DNA of 35,732 nt from a virus. The notes beneath the pieces were generated by a model. That model was not told where the DNA came from. It searched no databases and worked only from the letters and a program-made list of their open reading frames with translations. The position numbers and the translations under genes were made by a program. The stretch is from the IMG/VR virus record IMGVR_UViG_3300009163_000010, positions 1 to 35,732 of that record; one strand, written 5' to 3'. Positions 4,719 to 30,710 of this stretch are shown piece by piece (position 1 is the first letter of the stretch; every line of letters starts with the position of its first letter).

Positions 4719-5176
4719 GGTTTGCTTATCTGATTTGATATTTGCTCAACTAACAAGTCAGCATGCAACTGAAGCATTGCTGCTTGCTCCTCCGCTGTTG
4801 GTTGAAATATTGGTCCATAAAGTTTTTGCAATCCTGCCGCTTTCCCTGATTCATCCGCTTGAATGTAAATTGCTGAGCCAAATCCTTCATTGAATACTGA
4901 TCCTTGATCTGTTGCGAATGATCTCTTGAGGAATCCTGTAAGCTCTAATGGAGGTCTACCGTTCTTTGCTTTTATTGCTGCGTATGCAGGAGTATATGGC
5001 TTAGTTGGTAGTGTTTGCCCTGCTGTATTAGTACCTCCGCTTGTGCCTGTTCCAAAGATTCTGATGTACATCTCTCTGCGCATATCCAAGACAGCGAAAA
5101 ACAAAGGAGTAAAGCCTCCGCTCCACTCAGAGAAGAGCGCATCAATCCTTCCACTTATCTCCTTTGGTGTAGCCAT
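4715..5176 (-). CDS. Putative neck/tail-completion protein (virion morphogenesis type)
   Basis: 153 residues from ATG 5176 (MATPKEISGRIDALF). The start overlaps the upstream stop as TAATG, which decides against longer upstream starts. Basic and helical at the N-terminus (MRREMYIRIFG), then a PPLELTGFLKRSF segment typical of phage morphogenesis and gp10-like neck proteins, where a LxxTGxLxxS stretch precedes a short beta sheet (AIYIQADESG). Its position immediately after a connector-like structural protein and before the fibre fits head-tail joining. Family assignment is from motif style and place, not from a catalytic signature. Confidence 0.55.
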   Translation of the reverse strand: MATPKEISGRIDALFSEWSGGFTPLFFAVLDMRREMYIRIFGTGTSGGTNTAGQTLPTKPYTPAYAAIKAKNGRPPLELTGFLKRSFATDQGSVFNEGFGSAIYIQADESGKAAGLQKLYGPIFQPTAEEQAAMLQLHADLLVEQISNQISKP

Positions 5177-6213
5177 TATGGAAGAGCAGTGACGTACTTC
5201 ATATTCTTGCGGCAATCAAAGCACGTATTATCATCAGGCAGTCTCATGTTTTGCAACATGGCTGAAAGTTCTTCGTTGTATCTCGTTGCTGCAATGTCTC
5301 GCCCTGCAATCATGCCGTCATTTGGATCAGATGTTGCAAAGCCAGTGTTTATGCTTACTGTTGTATTCACTCGCTGATTCGGACTGATTGTTAATCCATA
5401 GTTATAAATTTCAACCGCCGTTGCATAAGCAAGTGGCATCGCCATCAATCCACCTATCGAGCATAACCAAGCTTCTCTGTCGCAGTTCACATTATAAACC
5501 AACGACATTCCTTGAGTGTACTTCTTCGATTTGGAGGATAGCACATTGAAGCCGTCAGTGGTCAGCTCAATTCCGATGGCATCCACAAATGGACAAACGT
5601 GCACCGCTCTGAGTTTACCTCCGCAATCAGTACAACTACCCTTCTTAGGAATCATCTTGGTTGTATCGTACAGCGATTCATAAACAAAAGCTAAATCCAA
5701 CTTTCTGCGATTCGCTTTAAAGGTCTTGCCAATAAACTGCTCAACTGCTTCTGATTGATAGAAGAATGAATCAATCAGCTTCAAGGTGCTCATGTCGTAC
5801 ACAAAGATTTCAACAGGAGTTGCCATCGTGTAGATGTCAATCTTGAAACTTGATAGGTAGAAGTTCAGAAAGCTTGTTGTATTCGGATCAATTGTGACTC
5901 TGATGCCTGTGTACTTGCCTGCGCCAACCGCTGTGTCGATGTTGGCAGCATTGCTCACAACTTGCCCAATGCGCTTGCTCTCAACAACCGTATCCGCTTT
6001 CATCATTGGATTCAATCGGCTTAAGATATCAGTTGACATCTTGCGCCAAGCGAATGCTCGCTTCGCTTCAAAGAGTTCAACTCCGCTGTTGTATTGATCT
6101 GTGATTAGCTGCCCGAGTAATGTTTGATTGATGCCTAAGTCATCAATGTAAAGGCCAGTAGTTGGCTCTGGTCTATCGCAACCTTGAAGACCAAGAAGGG
6201 AATCGTAGCACAT
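5176..6213 (-). CDS. Structural protein next to the capsid, possible head-tail connector
   Basis: 346 residues from ATG 6213 (MCYDSLLGLQGCD). An in-frame ORF extends upstream to 6279, but that stretch crosses the intrinsic terminator and the promoter box, so 6213 is the better start. The protein has several Cys, including CTDCGGKLRAVHVC near residues 195-210, which could bind zinc. Size, place (directly after the major capsid protein, before the neck gene) and lack of enzyme motifs suggest a virion component, possibly a connector or second head protein. It appears to have its own promoter (6232-6239). The stop overlaps the next start (TAATG). Confidence 0.6.
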   Translation of the reverse strand: MCYDSLLGLQGCDRPEPTTGLYIDDLGINQTLLGQLITDQYNSGVELFEAKRAFAWRKMSTDILSRLNPMMKADTVVESKRIGQVVSNAANIDTAVGAGKYTGIRVTIDPNTTSFLNFYLSSFKIDIYTMATPVEIFVYDMSTLKLIDSFFYQSEAVEQFIGKTFKANRRKLDLAFVYESLYDTTKMIPKKGSCTDCGGKLRAVHVCPFVDAIGIELTTDGFNVLSSKSKKYTQGMSLVYNVNCDREAWLCSIGGLMAMPLAYATAVEIYNYGLTISPNQRVNTTVSINTGFATSDPNDGMIAGRDIAATRYNEELSAMLQNMRLPDDNTCFDCRKNMKYVTALP

Positions 6214-24110: not shown

Positions 24111-24348
24111 TGGGCTCAAAGATAGGAATTAACTTTTGATTATGCAATTTTAAAATCTTAATCCATCGAGCGCAACGTGATAGGTAGTAAGAGTATACAA
24201 TGCTATCGGGATTAGCATTCATCAAGTGCTGCCTGAAGCTTTCATGCGTGCGCTGTGTTGAGTGATAGGTCACACAGCCATCGACAATCTTCCCCTCAAT
24301 CGGATAGTAGTCGTTCATCGTCTTGATTATCTTCTCCTCTGTCGTCAT
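24094..24348 (-). CDS. Hypothetical protein
   Basis: 84 residues (MTTEEKIIKTMNDYYPIEGK). Charged and mixed alpha/beta, with two Cys and a YSYYLSRCARW segment. It overlaps the VRR-NUC stop as ATGA. I do not recognise a family. Its place between a nuclease and a small DNA-binding protein hints at a role in DNA metabolism, without direct support. Confidence 0.65.
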   Translation of the reverse strand: MTTEEKIIKTMNDYYPIEGKIVDGCVTYHSTQRTHESFRQHLMNANPDSIVYSYYLSRCARWIKILKLHNQKLIPIFEPNGTKD

Positions 24349-24668
24349 GCGTTGATGATGTTTAAAAATTCTGCTTCACTTCTTACAATGTGATACTCAT
24401 GCCCCAGTGATCGGCATAGCTTCTCGAAAGTCACTTGCTGAGGTGACTGCTTGCCGATGTCTGTCTTCCATTCAATCCAACAAGTCTTGCCTTCTGGCTT
24501 CAAGTAGCACATATCAGCAACTCCTGCAATGACTCCCATTGCTTTATTCATTGCTCCTTTGATGCCGTTGATGGAGTTGTTATTGATGGCAAAAATGCGT
24601 CCTCTTAAGTCTGGGCGTGCGTTCCAAATGTTTTGGAATGCTCTCGCTTGGATTGCAACTTCGCTCAT
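24345..24668 (-). CDS. VRR-NUC domain nuclease
   Basis: 107 residues, a single-domain PD-(D/E)XK nuclease. The core is GVIAGVADMCYL (D52), followed by CWIEWK (E66, K68), then KQSPQQVTFEKLCRSLGHEY (Q77/Q78), and the last strand YHIVRS. That is the VRR-NUC order, in which E-x-K lies on the second strand and the Q helix follows. Phage members cut branched DNA such as Holliday junctions, to debranch DNA before packaging. It is the first gene downstream of the origin-like region and is likely to be co-transcribed with terminase. Confidence 0.85.
   Translation of the reverse strand: MSEVAIQARAFQNIWNARPDLRGRIFAINNNSINGIKGAMNKAMGVIAGVADMCYLKPEGKTCWIEWKTDIGKQSPQQVTFEKLCRSLGHEYHIVRSEAEFLNIINA
24622..24638. 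repeat. Inverted repeat TTCCAAA-tgt-TTTGGAA
   Basis: A perfect 7-bp inverted repeat with a 3-base centre, inside the 5' end of the VRR-NUC gene. A related palindrome, TCCAAA-C-TTTGGA, lies 65 bases away at 24704-24716, upstream of the same gene. Two copies of one dyad flanking a start codon look like operators, though this one also encodes ordinary residues. Confidence 0.4.
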
Positions 24669-24703
24669 GATTGCATCAGTGCATCAGGCGCATCATGCAA
24701 CAT

Positions 24704-24716
24704 TCCAAACTTTGGA
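24704..24716. repeat. Palindrome TCCAAA-C-TTTGGA
   Basis: A perfect 6-bp inverted repeat around one base, in the non-coding region 36 bases ahead of the VRR-NUC start. It shares its half-site with 24622-24638. Candidate operator, or a recognition element of the origin. Confidence 0.4.
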
Positions 24717-24722
24717 GGTATA

Positions 24723-24768
24723 ACGTGTGCGTGTGTGTGTGTGTGTGTGTGCATGTGTATATATATAT
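24723..24768. repeat. 46-bp alternating purine-pyrimidine tract (GT/AT)
   Basis: Every step from 24723 to 24768 alternates purine and pyrimidine: an initial ACGTGTGC, a long (GT) run to 24750, a short GCATGTGT, then (AT) to the end. Long (GT) tracts favour left-handed Z-DNA under negative supercoiling, and the adjoining (AT) part melts or extrudes easily. Such a microsatellite is unusual in a compact phage genome and its length may vary between copies. Confidence 0.9.
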
Positions 24769-24857
24769 CTGTTAATAATAGATTTTTTGACTGATGCATG
24801 ATGCAATCGTCTGTGGGCTTTGTGGCAGTAGCGACTCAGTGCATCAGGCACTTTTTT

Positions 24858-27014
24858 TTAGTGCATGATGCTGCCTGATGCATCATTTATGTTTCTTGAG
24901 ACGAAGTACATCATTATCAACTGATTACGTTTTCCTCTTCGTTCTTTAATAAATCCAAGCTTTGTCAGAATTTGCCCAATGCGATTTGTGTTGAGGTAAT
25001 TAAATTTTGTTTCGAGCATCAAGAATTGTTGAATATCGGTGAGTGACATCCATTCTCCGTATGAAGTTGAAGATCCTGGTTGAAGCTTTTGGTTGATTAA
25101 GTCATCTTCTGGTGTCGAAAGTTTGAACATCTCCGTTGCTTCATTGAGTTCAATTATTTCATCTCCGAGTATCTTATACTCAGCACCCATCTGATACATG
25201 CAATAAAGCTCGCGCCATAGTCCAATCTTATCGCATTTATTATATAACTCTTGATTAATACCAAGGATGTTGATACCTATGATTCGTCTGTTGCCTGTTG
25301 CATCACTAAGAATCTGAGTATCGTTTGATGTTCCGCAGAATACTGCGAGTCTTTTTAGATCCACAGAAACACGACCATAAGGCTCGCGCACGTTGATGTA
25401 TTCTTTTGATGTGAGCTCCTTTAGTCGCTTATCTTCCTTCTTTGATTTACCACCGTACTCGTCATCATTGATGATAAGCTTGCCGCACATAAGAATCTCG
25501 TCATCCTTTCCGGCATCCATCTTTGATTCAGCATATAGGTATCTAATTGGCTTAGGAAGTAAGTAACGAAACCAGTGTGTTTTTCCTGTTCCTTGCTGTG
25601 CTCCGCAGAAAACAAGTACGAGAGCTGAGTGATTTCCATAGGCTGATGCTATGATTGATAGCAGCCATCTCTGAATCCACTTGCTTGCATTAGGTGTGTC
25701 AGTGATTACGCTTTCAATCAACATGGTTAAGTTCGGCCAATTGTCTTCATTGGTTTGGTAAAGTTCCTCCTCGAAGAATTCATGCAATGGATTATAAGAC
25801 GGTATGCGATTCGAGAATATAATCGATGTCACCAGGTCCTTGTTCGATTCTTTAAATACTGCTTTTGAATCAAGATATATTGAATTCAAATCACTATCAT
25901 CTATTGCTCTGCCATTAAGTTCAATCTTTCGAGTGATTAGATTCTTCTTAAGGTCGAATGTTTTGATGTATGCGGCAATGTCCTCGCTTACGTTCTCCGA
26001 TTTAAATTTAATGTCCTTGCTTACTATCTGCTCAACGATTTCTTTCGAGTCGGCTGAGCTTATTCCGCCATGCTTTTCCAGTGTTTCGATGATCGCATCC
26101 GATGACAGCCCTGCCGCTCTTTGCGATGTAGCATGACGCATGATGCTCTTGGTATACTCGGAGTACACATCAATTGCGTTTTGCTTAGCATGAAAGTATA
26201 TTGTGCCGATTGATGACTTCTTTCTTTTCGACTCGCTGTGATTTTTGAGGCAAGCATCAAACTGGGCATCGCAGTCGACTGAATTGTACTTTGATGAATG
26301 CGATGATAGCGTGTGGAAATAGTCGCGCCCTTCTTCGCCAAATTCGGAAACAAGTGCATAGCAGATTCGGATCCACTCAGAGTAATCCTCGCAAAGGTTA
26401 AGTCCTTTCTTGTCCATCTGATCAATGATGGCATCGAAGTCAGATTTAATTACAACAACTTTGGCTTGCTTGTACTCCTTCTTTTTTGGCAGATACTTCT
26501 TGAATGTTGCTGACTTGGAGTTTTGGATTATAAATGGATCGTAGGAAATGAATCGGGCGCGAGATACGTTCTTGCCGGACTGATCCACGATAAGCTGATA
26601 CTCGTTGTATAAGTATGCAGCAATGCCATTGAACGCATCAAGGTGCCGAGTGCCGTCAATCTTTATGATTAAGCACAAACCTTTTCCGCTGATGGAAATA
26701 AATGCAGCATATAGATAGGAGTCACTACCTATGCGGTCCTTGGTGGCGGCTGCATCTTCGAGGTTGTCGATGTCGATTGCTATATAGTTTGAATGCTTAC
26801 GAAGAGCATCATCTTTGCGAGCTGAGAAGGAGCCGCTTATTGTTACCAGTGGAGCGGTCTTTTTCTTGAGCTCTTTTATTTCCTTGTTTGGAGCATTGCG
26901 AACTTCGAGAGCGATGTCTTGCCATCTGCCTGAGCGAACTCCTTCGAGGAAGTTGTCTATTTCGATGTCCTTGTCTTGAGAATCATGGATGTTCTTGTAT
27001 AGTGAAATCAGCAT
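24858..27014 (-). CDS. Primase-helicase: VirE_N (BT4734-like), PriCT_2 and VirE ATPase domains
   Basis: 718 residues. The N-terminal VirE_N/BT4734-like domain has TISGSFSARKDDAL then IAIDIDNLED, with D81 and D83 as candidate metal ligands of the primase. A PriCT_2-like helical segment lies at about 195-275 (YSEWIRICYALVSEFGEEGRD). The C-terminal VirE/SF3-like ATPase has Walker A GAQQGTGKT (471-479), Walker B IINDDEYGG (acidic 517-519) and a sensor ...VFCGTSND then TGNRRIIGI. The protein should make primers and unwind the fork, so the phage can initiate its own replication. The last codons run into the GCATCA cluster. The start overlaps the helicase gene by 32 bases. Confidence 0.9.
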   Translation of the reverse strand: MLISLYKNIHDSQDKDIEIDNFLEGVRSGRWQDIALEVRNAPNKEIKELKKKTAPLVTISGSFSARKDDALRKHSNYIAIDIDNLEDAAATKDRIGSDSYLYAAFISISGKGLCLIIKIDGTRHLDAFNGIAAYLYNEYQLIVDQSGKNVSRARFISYDPFIIQNSKSATFKKYLPKKKEYKQAKVVVIKSDFDAIIDQMDKKGLNLCEDYSEWIRICYALVSEFGEEGRDYFHTLSSHSSKYNSVDCDAQFDACLKNHSESKRKKSSIGTIYFHAKQNAIDVYSEYTKSIMRHATSQRAAGLSSDAIIETLEKHGGISSADSKEIVEQIVSKDIKFKSENVSEDIAAYIKTFDLKKNLITRKIELNGRAIDDSDLNSIYLDSKAVFKESNKDLVTSIIFSNRIPSYNPLHEFFEEELYQTNEDNWPNLTMLIESVITDTPNASKWIQRWLLSIIASAYGNHSALVLVFCGAQQGTGKTHWFRYLLPKPIRYLYAESKMDAGKDDEILMCGKLIINDDEYGGKSKKEDKRLKELTSKEYINVREPYGRVSVDLKRLAVFCGTSNDTQILSDATGNRRIIGINILGINQELYNKCDKIGLWRELYCMYQMGAEYKILGDEIIELNEATEMFKLSTPEDDLINQKLQPGSSTSYGEWMSLTDIQQFLMLETKFNYLNTNRIGQILTKLGFIKERRGKRNQLIMMYFVSRNINDASGSIMH

Positions 27015-29697: not shown

Positions 29698-29909
29698 TGC
29701 TCAATTGCTCTTTTGTCCAAGGGAATAAATCCCGATCCGTTGCCATGTACTACCTTGATGAAGTCAACCTCAACCTTTGCTGAGTTGACAATCACCTGGG
29801 CGATGTCTGCGATTGCTTTTGCTTTGTCGAGCTCCATGTCGTTTTCTTTGAGCATCTCGATGATTTCGAATAAGTGATCTCTTAGATCTTCGATTTTATT
29901 TCTTGCCAT
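29694..29909 (-). CDS. Small helical phage protein
   Basis: 71 residues (MARNKIEDLRDHLFEIIEML). Almost entirely helical with AKAIADIAQVIVNSAKVEVD, a pattern I know from small phage proteins of unknown function next to recombination genes. Overlaps the HNH gene by 28 bases and the exonuclease as ATGA. Possibly a cofactor of replication proteins; not proven. Confidence 0.7.
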   Translation of the reverse strand: MARNKIEDLRDHLFEIIEMLKENDMELDKAKAIADIAQVIVNSAKVEVDFIKVVHGNGSGFIPLDKRAIEQ

Positions 29910-30484
29910 AATTTGTTCAGTGTTTTAATTGTGTCTCTAATTGGTTTGGGGTACTTGGTGATTGTATTGCGCTGCATGTTCTCCACTTTCGTGATTGCTT
30001 CGAGGTTTTCTATCTCAAAATTTGAGATGTTTTTATCTCGGAATGTGACTATCATGTGCGGCTCAAGCTTGCCGTGGTGCTGTTCGTAGATGTGCCGATG
30101 TTTAAGGACCCATCGTGTGTGCTCTGCAATCTTGATGTAGGTGTAGCCATCTTCATCGATGCGCTCTGATCCAACTTCTTTGTGGTTAGCAGGCACATTG
30201 CCTTTCTTAAACTGCGACTCTGTGCCTCCGATCTGAATGCCTTTAAGCCCTTTGTTCCAAGGCTCGTGACCTTTCGGGAACTGCGTACCGACATTGCCTT
30301 TTTGGAGTCTTCCGCTGAGCTCTGATGCCAAGTACTCTGGAGTCTTATGCAGTTGCAGTGCGTGAGCTTTGGCATAGCACTGAGCGATTGATTTCCCAGT
30401 GATGAATGCCACCTCTTTTGTGGACCGATGCGGATAGTACTCAATCAGCAACTCGGTCTCTTCCATCGTCCAGTTACAGCGCAT
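29882..30484 (-). CDS. HNH endonuclease with N-terminal helix-turn-helix
   Basis: 200 residues from ATG 30484 (MRCNWTMEETELLIEYYPHR), chosen because it overlaps the preceding stop by only 11 bases. A SANT/Myb-like segment (MEETELLIEYYPHRSTKEVA, SIAQCYAKAHAL) suggests DNA binding. A NUMOD3-like stretch (FPKGHEPWNKGLKG, SQFKKGNVPANHKEV) follows, then the HNH fold: KHRHIYEQHHGKL, VTFRDKN and ISNFEIENLEAIT. The order is that of phage homing-type HNH nucleases. A selfish insertion into the recombination operon is likely. Confidence 0.8.
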   Translation of the reverse strand: MRCNWTMEETELLIEYYPHRSTKEVAFITGKSIAQCYAKAHALQLHKTPEYLASELSGRLQKGNVGTQFPKGHEPWNKGLKGIQIGGTESQFKKGNVPANHKEVGSERIDEDGYTYIKIAEHTRWVLKHRHIYEQHHGKLEPHMIVTFRDKNISNFEIENLEAITKVENMQRNTITKYPKPIRDTIKTLNKLWQEIKSKI

Positions 30485-30710
30485 CATAATACTCGCGCCC
30501 TCCTTGATCGCCTCCACTTGCCATTGGCTTTGGCAGCCTATCAAATATTGCCTTCTGTCCATCGTGATAGCCATTTGAATAGGCTTGGATTATTGCTTCT
30601 TTTACCTTGGCTTGCATGCTGTCATCATCTGCTTCTCGCGGATCAATGATGGTGTCAAGGTAACGGTTGAATTGCGTGAATTCGTAGTGGATGTTGTCGA
30701 ATGGGCTCAT
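30474..30710 (-). CDS. Small hypothetical protein
   Basis: 78 residues (MSPFDNIHYEFTQFNRYLDT). Acidic N-terminal half, helical middle (MQAKVKEAIIQAYSNGYHDG), and a basic tail. Start overlaps the previous stop as ATGA, and its 3' end overlaps the HNH gene by 11 bases. No recognisable family. Confidence 0.6.
   Translation of the reverse strand: MSPFDNIHYEFTQFNRYLDTIIDPREADDDSMQAKVKEAIIQAYSNGYHDGQKAIFDRLPKPMASGGDQGGREYYDAL

Follow-up and report, generated by a model that had tools for sequence, protein, structure and literature searches.

Iterons Around an Alternating Tract Mark the Predicted Replication Origin of a Phage, and Their Word Follows the Wing of Its Primase-Helicase

Introduction

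What is the role of nine copies of one hexamer within 213 bp, directly behind a phage primase-helicase gene, and which protein reads them? The question is posed by a 35,732-base stretch of viral DNA, hereafter the window, a 35.7-kb record whose gene families include terminase, portal, and endolysin, for which an initial annotation had proposed an iteron-type origin at this place. Iteron origins and VapE-type initiators are known; to our knowledge, how such an initiator tells its own origin from foreign ones is little resolved. For comparison, four IMG/VR scans provided 83 distinct primase-plus-downstream loci.

Organization of the Repeat Region

All nine copies of TGATGC/GCATCA that had been counted are found where they were claimed (24673-24885), and the layout is as follows. 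By sequence and layout comparison, three far-side iterons lie on the minus strand at 24673-24678, 24681-24686, and 24690-24695 (span 24673-24695) and stop just short of the next gene's start codon. An alternating purine-pyrimidine tract of 46 nt, (TG/CA)n plus (AT)n, extends from 24723 to 24768, and the A/T-rich segment beside it (24769-24788) is, with the tract, a candidate melting site; in the relatives, too, the segment adjoining the tract is A/T-rich. On the primase side of the tract, counts and layout comparison place two proximal iterons on the plus strand (24792-24797 and 24799-24804; span 24792-24804). An inverted iteron pair with an A/T-rich loop, capable of forming a hairpin, occupies 24838-24871, copy 24841-24846 standing opposite 24866-24871. 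The last three copies, the distal iterons at 24866-24871, 24876-24881, and 24880-24885 (span 24866-24885), were assigned from sequence and counts and fall within the 3′ end of the primase-helicase gene, in its last codons (stop codon 24858-24860). The tract, the A/T-rich segment, and their place directly behind that gene had all been described correctly.

The gene next after the origin, on the minus strand at 24345-24668, encodes a VRR-NUC-like or Holliday-junction-resolvase-like nuclease (phrog_824, phrog_5702), its VRR_NUC match being weak (E 0.0044, under Pfam's cut-off). An HNH endonuclease gene is located in the replication region at window positions 29882-30574 (phrog_1891, HNH_3). In three other loci, the gene behind the origin is not VRR-NUC-like: L084 and L218 share another one (its product starts MIPKICRFSGCSN), and L179 has a methylase-like gene.

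The chance expectation first given for the cluster, near 0.1, was set too low, because the window as a whole holds 85 copies of TGATGC/GCATCA against 43.7 expected. A chance cluster is ruled out by a window-wide comparison of hexamers and by Markov surrogates of the window (n = 200). The nine copies in 213 bp form the densest cluster of any non-simple hexamer in the window, the next unrelated hexamer reaching six, and the surrogates never exceeded four copies. An equally dense cluster elsewhere, named at the outset as an observation that would speak against an origin, is thus absent from the window. The window-wide excess of TGATGC was also considered as a part of the origin system. It is background, since the counts beyond the origin are similar in relatives that use another iteron word (mean 56 vs 67).

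Evidence for a Probable Replication Origin

Detrended cumulative GC skew was followed in 21 near-full-length records, namely the window and 20 of its relatives. None of the 21 has its skew minimum further than 2.2 kb from the tract; the distance is at most 260 bp in 14 of them (189 bp in the window) and 1.2-2.1 kb in the other seven. The maximum is far removed, by a median of 38% of the genome. A far-off minimum, which the initial annotation had regarded as the adverse outcome, is therefore found in none of the records. Since genes run in the same direction on both sides of the origin, the turn in skew is not due to a change of coding strand. A minimum at this place is what bidirectional replication from here would be expected to leave, and this evidence is correlational.

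The second line of evidence is the layout. Whatever the iteron word, the iteron sets of the 83 loci occupy near-fixed positions on both sides of the tract, at about −113, −103, −80, and −40/−33 on one side and +73, +82, and +91 on the other, with 9-10 bp as the commonest spacing. The nearest iterons on both sides point toward the tract in 64 of the 83 loci, and the array is directly behind the primase-helicase gene in every one. The absence of the cluster from related phages had been named as a further adverse outcome; as it turns out, the layout is present in them, and the word itself differs in most. A second dense cluster of a record's own word was sought in the 21 records, and none was found (at most four copies per 250 bp).

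GC skew, two-sided layout, and the covariation of the iteron word with a winged helix, described below, together strongly support the proposal of an iteron-type origin. We conclude that the repeat region is very probably the phage's replication origin, and that the adjoining primase-helicase gene encodes the predicted initiator.

Could the repeats instead be operators, through which the nuclease gene is controlled or the primase-helicase regulates its own expression? Three iteron copies do stop only a few bases from the start codon of the gene that follows, so near that a bound protein would probably affect the nuclease gene too. Transcription control in place of an origin, however, predicts neither the GC-skew minimum at the site, nor two opposed iteron sets at fixed distances round an unwinding-prone core, nor covariation with a fused primase-helicase, and the array stays in loci where the gene after the origin differs. 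We consider the operator explanation very unlikely.

In ungapped pattern searches, every array with a long alternating tract adjoins this primase-helicase, and the other matches are lone word pairs or short arrays without a tract, near which initiators were sought and none found. No named phage matched the window region when searched at the DNA level. Four unrelated viral contigs (L290, L310, L274, and L275) have short arrays of the same words (GTTGCAACTT, GGACAACTT, GTTGCCACTT), the GTTGCCACTT array being near a tRNA-like sequence; no related initiator was found on the fetched stretches of these contigs. Contig IMGVR_UViG_3300008259_000070 (40001 bp) carries two primase-helicase copies near its two ends (L043 and L069), with slightly different wings; this may reflect a double origin, two phages joined together, or an artefact of assembly.

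Outside the group with the tract, distant relatives have iterons round an A/T-rich core, namely Flavobacterium phages mumin6-1 (GGTTACC) and lotta8-1 (TGGAACA) and locus L221 (GGTTGCAAC). The more distant loci L219, L323, and L324-L330 have arrays of the words GGAACAGAT, GGGTACAA, and TGTAGTCA/TGTATTCA downstream of the primase-helicase gene, round an A/T-rich core and without a CA tract. No cluster was found behind the primase gene in the marine relatives phi46:1 and P12024L, and no 7-mer cluster at that place in the proteobacterial VapE phages Jilinvirus, FoX2, Mano, and Mica. In mumin6-1 (L225), a nuclease gene at 4738-5301 (PF10544, T5orf172) splits the origin region, separating most of the iterons from the primase-helicase gene. 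T5orf172 is also a domain of ICP1's origin-directed nuclease Odn.

The Alternating Tract and the Inverted Pair

The alternating tract is present in the same place in all 83 loci, with a length of 19-53 nt (median 44). Interruptions in its CA core keep the alternation 176 times and break it 6 times, which suggests selection on purine-pyrimidine alternation, although transition bias may contribute. A role in Z-DNA formation or unwinding, as first proposed, is plausible for this candidate element. The tract could also be a neutral (CA)n microsatellite that came to lie between the iterons by chance, a possibility that bears on the tract alone and does not conflict with an origin here. Its length does vary as in a slipping repeat, and mumin, lotta8-1, L221, and L323 have iteron arrays without it, so that the tract is a group feature and not needed by every such origin. 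Against neutrality stand its constant place in the 83 loci and the excess of kept over broken alternation, for part of which transition bias may account. We regard neutrality as possible, though the less likely of the two accounts of the tract.

A plus-strand hairpin with a T-run at 24838-24859 had been taken as the possible end of a short primer-like RNA. The hairpin exists, but its T-run is not conserved in the loops of the relatives, and the RNA end is left unsupported. Read on the same strand in 82 loci, the loop shows a run of T in 15 and of A in 25, with neither run in the other 42. What is kept, in 82 of 83 loci, is the inverted iteron pair, while the letters of the loop vary. On these counts, a conserved intrinsic terminator, in which a stem would lead into a T-run always on one strand, is not supported.

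A C-Terminal Winged Helix as the Predicted Iteron Reader

The primase-helicase, the predicted origin-binding initiator, is a protein of 718 amino acid residues encoded on the minus strand (24858-27014; Pfam, PHROGs). Its Pfam domains are a BT4734-like N-terminal domain, PriCT-2, and a VapE-like helicase, and besides these there is a predicted C-terminal winged helix; the PDB match to a VapE-like protein, 7pds, is weak. The nearest named relatives are Cellulophaga phage phi46:1, Nonlabens phage P12024L, and Flavobacterium phage mumin, phages of Flavobacteriia with 31-36% identity. Since, in addition, a Chitinophagaceae genome encodes a related C-terminus, the host is likely in Bacteroidota.

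The winged helix comprises residues about 650-707 (24894-25067, minus strand). An AlphaFold2 model built on 75 aligned C-termini has a mean pLDDT of 80 and reaches about 90 or higher over most of the domain. In fold it comes closest to the DNA-binding domains of RFX5 (Z 7.5) and of RFX1 in complex with DNA (Z 6.5), and the Foldseek match has an E value of 0.02. The phage P4 origin-binding domain, 1ka8, is also among the fold matches at Z 5.2, which is below RFX and in a range that common folds reach. Since the RFX values are themselves moderate and within the common-fold range, the structural agreement supports the assignment but does not prove it. When PDB sequences were searched with a profile of the C-terminal domain, the matches were at chance level only.

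The initial annotation had pointed to the N-terminal domain of the primase as the part to footprint on this DNA. That choice finds no support, as the iteron word covaries with the C-terminal winged helix, which should be the DNA reader, to judge from the covariation and the predicted fold.

Wing Residues and Iteron Words

The word changes as a set, all copies in a locus switching together. The window and its nearest kin have TGCATCA, other loci have TGCACCA, TGGACA[A/G], TGGACCA, or TGGACTA, and further words elsewhere are TGTTGCCA, TGTTGCA[A/G], TGTATCAA, GGTTGCAGG, and GTGTAGGGGTT. In some loci (L041, L046-L049, L051, L053, and L057), one iteron set deviates from the other, with TGGACAG beside TGGACAA. 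A tree from which the C-terminus was left out has at least 24 changes of word.

Three wing residues follow the word; in the window, they are Gly694, Leu699, and Met701, encoded within 24912-24935 on the minus strand. Residues are numbered here from Met, and the columns of the covariation scan are at +4, as the frame used there begins before Met. In the AlphaFold2 model, the three are at the tip and in the third strand of the wing. The correspondence is as follows. For base 3 of the word, Arg or Lys at residue 694 goes with T, Gly with C, and a small or aliphatic residue with G. For bases 4-5, Lys699 goes with AC, Leu699 with AT, and Ile, Val, or Thr with TG. For the base after the core, Arg701 goes with C, Ala with T, and Thr or Met with A, wings of the TGTTGCAA type having Thr701. 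The second base after the core tracks residue 701 loosely.

In a scan of all columns of the protein, residues 699 and 694 come out on top for the word's left part, and residue 701 does so for the base after the core, with a normalised mutual information of 1.0. Among close pairs, residue 699 differs in all 51 whose words are unlike and in none of the 69 whose words agree. Independent pairs were taken on the tree made without the C-terminus. Lys699 accompanies AC in 13 of 13 such pairs (p 0.0002) and Arg/Lys694 accompanies T in 12 of 12 (p 0.0005); Leu699 goes with AT in 8 of 8, and Ile/Val/Thr699 with TG in 9 of 9. Gly694 with C (5/5) and Arg701 with C (3/4) have too few pairs for significance, the fourth Arg701 pair being without a difference of residue 701 in that sense. 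At the level of single copies, the Arg701 loci have C in 66 of 66 iterons.

The residue-word rule was fixed in writing before the second, third, and fourth IMG/VR scans. Seven of seven new loci under the rule (L100, L105, L184, L102, L103, L218, and L220) fit it in both the left part and the next base, and they amount to about four independent cases. Locus L161, with residues outside the rule, has a new word, GTGTAGGGGTT, and is not decoded; nor is phage lotta8-1 (TGGAACA) decoded by the three residues. Both word groups with C after the core have Gln in place of Lys at residue 690, alongside Arg701 (L063, L178, and L180, and the TGTTGCCA loci L072, L073, L094, L165, and L166), and residue 690 is possibly a fourth specificity residue.

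Exchange of the Wing and the Iterons as One Cassette

A piece of about 350 bp with the wing codons and the iterons is exchanged between genomes that are 92-100% identical beside it. Between loci L100 and L102, for example, a stretch of more than 1 kb at 100% identity is followed by a fall to 82% in the gene's final 60 bases and to 56% in the 60 bases just beyond the gene. In the pairs L100/L103, L173/L176, L066/L089, and L073/L083, identity is back to 92-98% from about +300. The middle of the exchanged piece, with the tract, is more alike (72-92%). Since wing codons and iterons adjoin, phages can swap lock and key together.

That the cassette moves as one piece would alone be enough to correlate neighbouring sequences, and it might be argued that recombination simply carries wing and iterons along as a unit, with no direct recognition between them. 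Against linkage alone stands the recurrence of residue-base pairings in more than one word background: Lys699 goes with AC in TGGAC as well as in TGCAC words, Leu699 with AT in TGCAT as well as in TGTAT words, and Arg701 with C in TGGACC as well as in TGTTGCC words. L029 and L019-L023 have the loop GPRGQ in common, and they differ in having Leu699 with TGCATCA and Lys699 with TGCACCA, respectively. The remaining columns have lower scores, and among them are linked columns close to the wing. Mere co-travel is thus an unlikely explanation of the word swaps.

The nuclease directly next to the array, and the terminase further on, raise the thought of a packaging (pac/cos) or recombination site read by one of these proteins, and the region is in fact a recombination breakpoint. 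But the nuclease region keeps 92-98% identity across complete changes of the word, so that the neighbouring nuclease cannot be the reader, and the word tracks the wing of the primase-helicase, not the nuclease. We hold a packaging or recombination site to be extremely improbable.

It is likely, with less confidence than for the origin itself, that three wing residues of an RFX-like winged helix constitute a readable code for three parts of the iteron, and that lock and key are exchanged together in the piece of about 350 bp, probably under diversifying pressure. Such pressure on the cassettes would probably come from competitors, satellites, or origin-targeting nucleases.

Proposed Mechanism and Relation to Known Systems

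We suggest the following course of initiation. The C-terminal winged helix would bind each iteron via its wing, and initiator subunits would form rings on the two oppositely oriented iteron sets. The tract and the A/T-rich segment between the sets would then melt, two helicases would leave in opposite directions, and the fused primase domain would start strands, giving bidirectional replication.

The closest parallel is with the PICI/SaPI replicons (SaPI5, SaPIbov1, and E. coli PICIs), in which there are a primase and a VapE-like/self-loading helicase initiator, the origin is directly behind the gene with two iteron sets round an A/T-rich region, and the C-terminal domain of Rep recognises the origin (PMC7581432, PMC6092414). 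The window's origin is likewise directly 3′ of a primase/VapE-like initiator gene, and two iteron sets flank an A/T-rich region in the 83 loci. The carrier is different, being a complete-looking phage of about 35 kb with its own terminase and portal, not an island, and related to phages of Bacteroidota. In addition, the core contains an alternating (CA)n tract, and a residue-to-base correspondence and natural cassette exchange are visible. As far as sequence can tell, the replicon is of the same kind as the PICI/SaPI pri-rep-ori, but its carrier is not a PICI.

The SCCmec protein Cch2 is a D5-type helicase, and its isolated C-terminal domain binds short direct repeats behind the gene, at a putative origin (PMC7581432). 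This resembles the predicted reader and the place of the repeats here, but the SCCmec system has separate polymerase/primase proteins and three iterons only, and belongs to a Staphylococcus mobile element. The α protein of phage P4 is similar in its fused primase-helicase and in the C-terminal winged-helix origin-binding domain, which is predicted here. P4 replication uses ori plus a distant crr region; the present phages differ in having a single cluster in the 21 records examined.

RFX1 is a known winged helix whose wing reads the DNA major groove (PMC4333399). RFX1 and RFX5 are the best fold match, and the wing is the element whose residues track the word here; both are eukaryotic transcription factors, and the likeness is of fold only. 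The C-terminal Tail of ASFV C962R has been compared with the P4 origin-binding domain and RFX1 (PMC10516667).

Changing iterons have precedents. In the PLE/ICP1 system, origin iterons change under pressure, including by exchange of the replication module, and PLE iterons escape ICP1 Odn, a nuclease that mimics the initiator RepA (PMC8263062). The likeness lies in the changing iterons of a mobile element and in module exchange, whereas RepA is a RepA_N initiator of unrelated fold. In geminiviruses, close relatives are reported to have different iterons and matching Rep residues (e.g., PMC12548392); the Rep there is a rolling-circle protein of ssDNA viruses. Against the open PubMed Central literature that was searched, three features appear to be new: that word and wing correspond, that the two are exchanged as a cassette, and that a (CA)n tract is conserved.

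Implications

The word swaps on the tree, at least 24 and all natural, yield a wing-to-base correspondence that is compact and testable, and they provide a clear case of a specificity cassette. Arrays of the same kind are present in named Flavobacterium phages that are in culture (mumin and lotta). The correspondence would open origin specificity, incompatibility in co-infection, and origin-directed defence to tests with short DNA and one domain.
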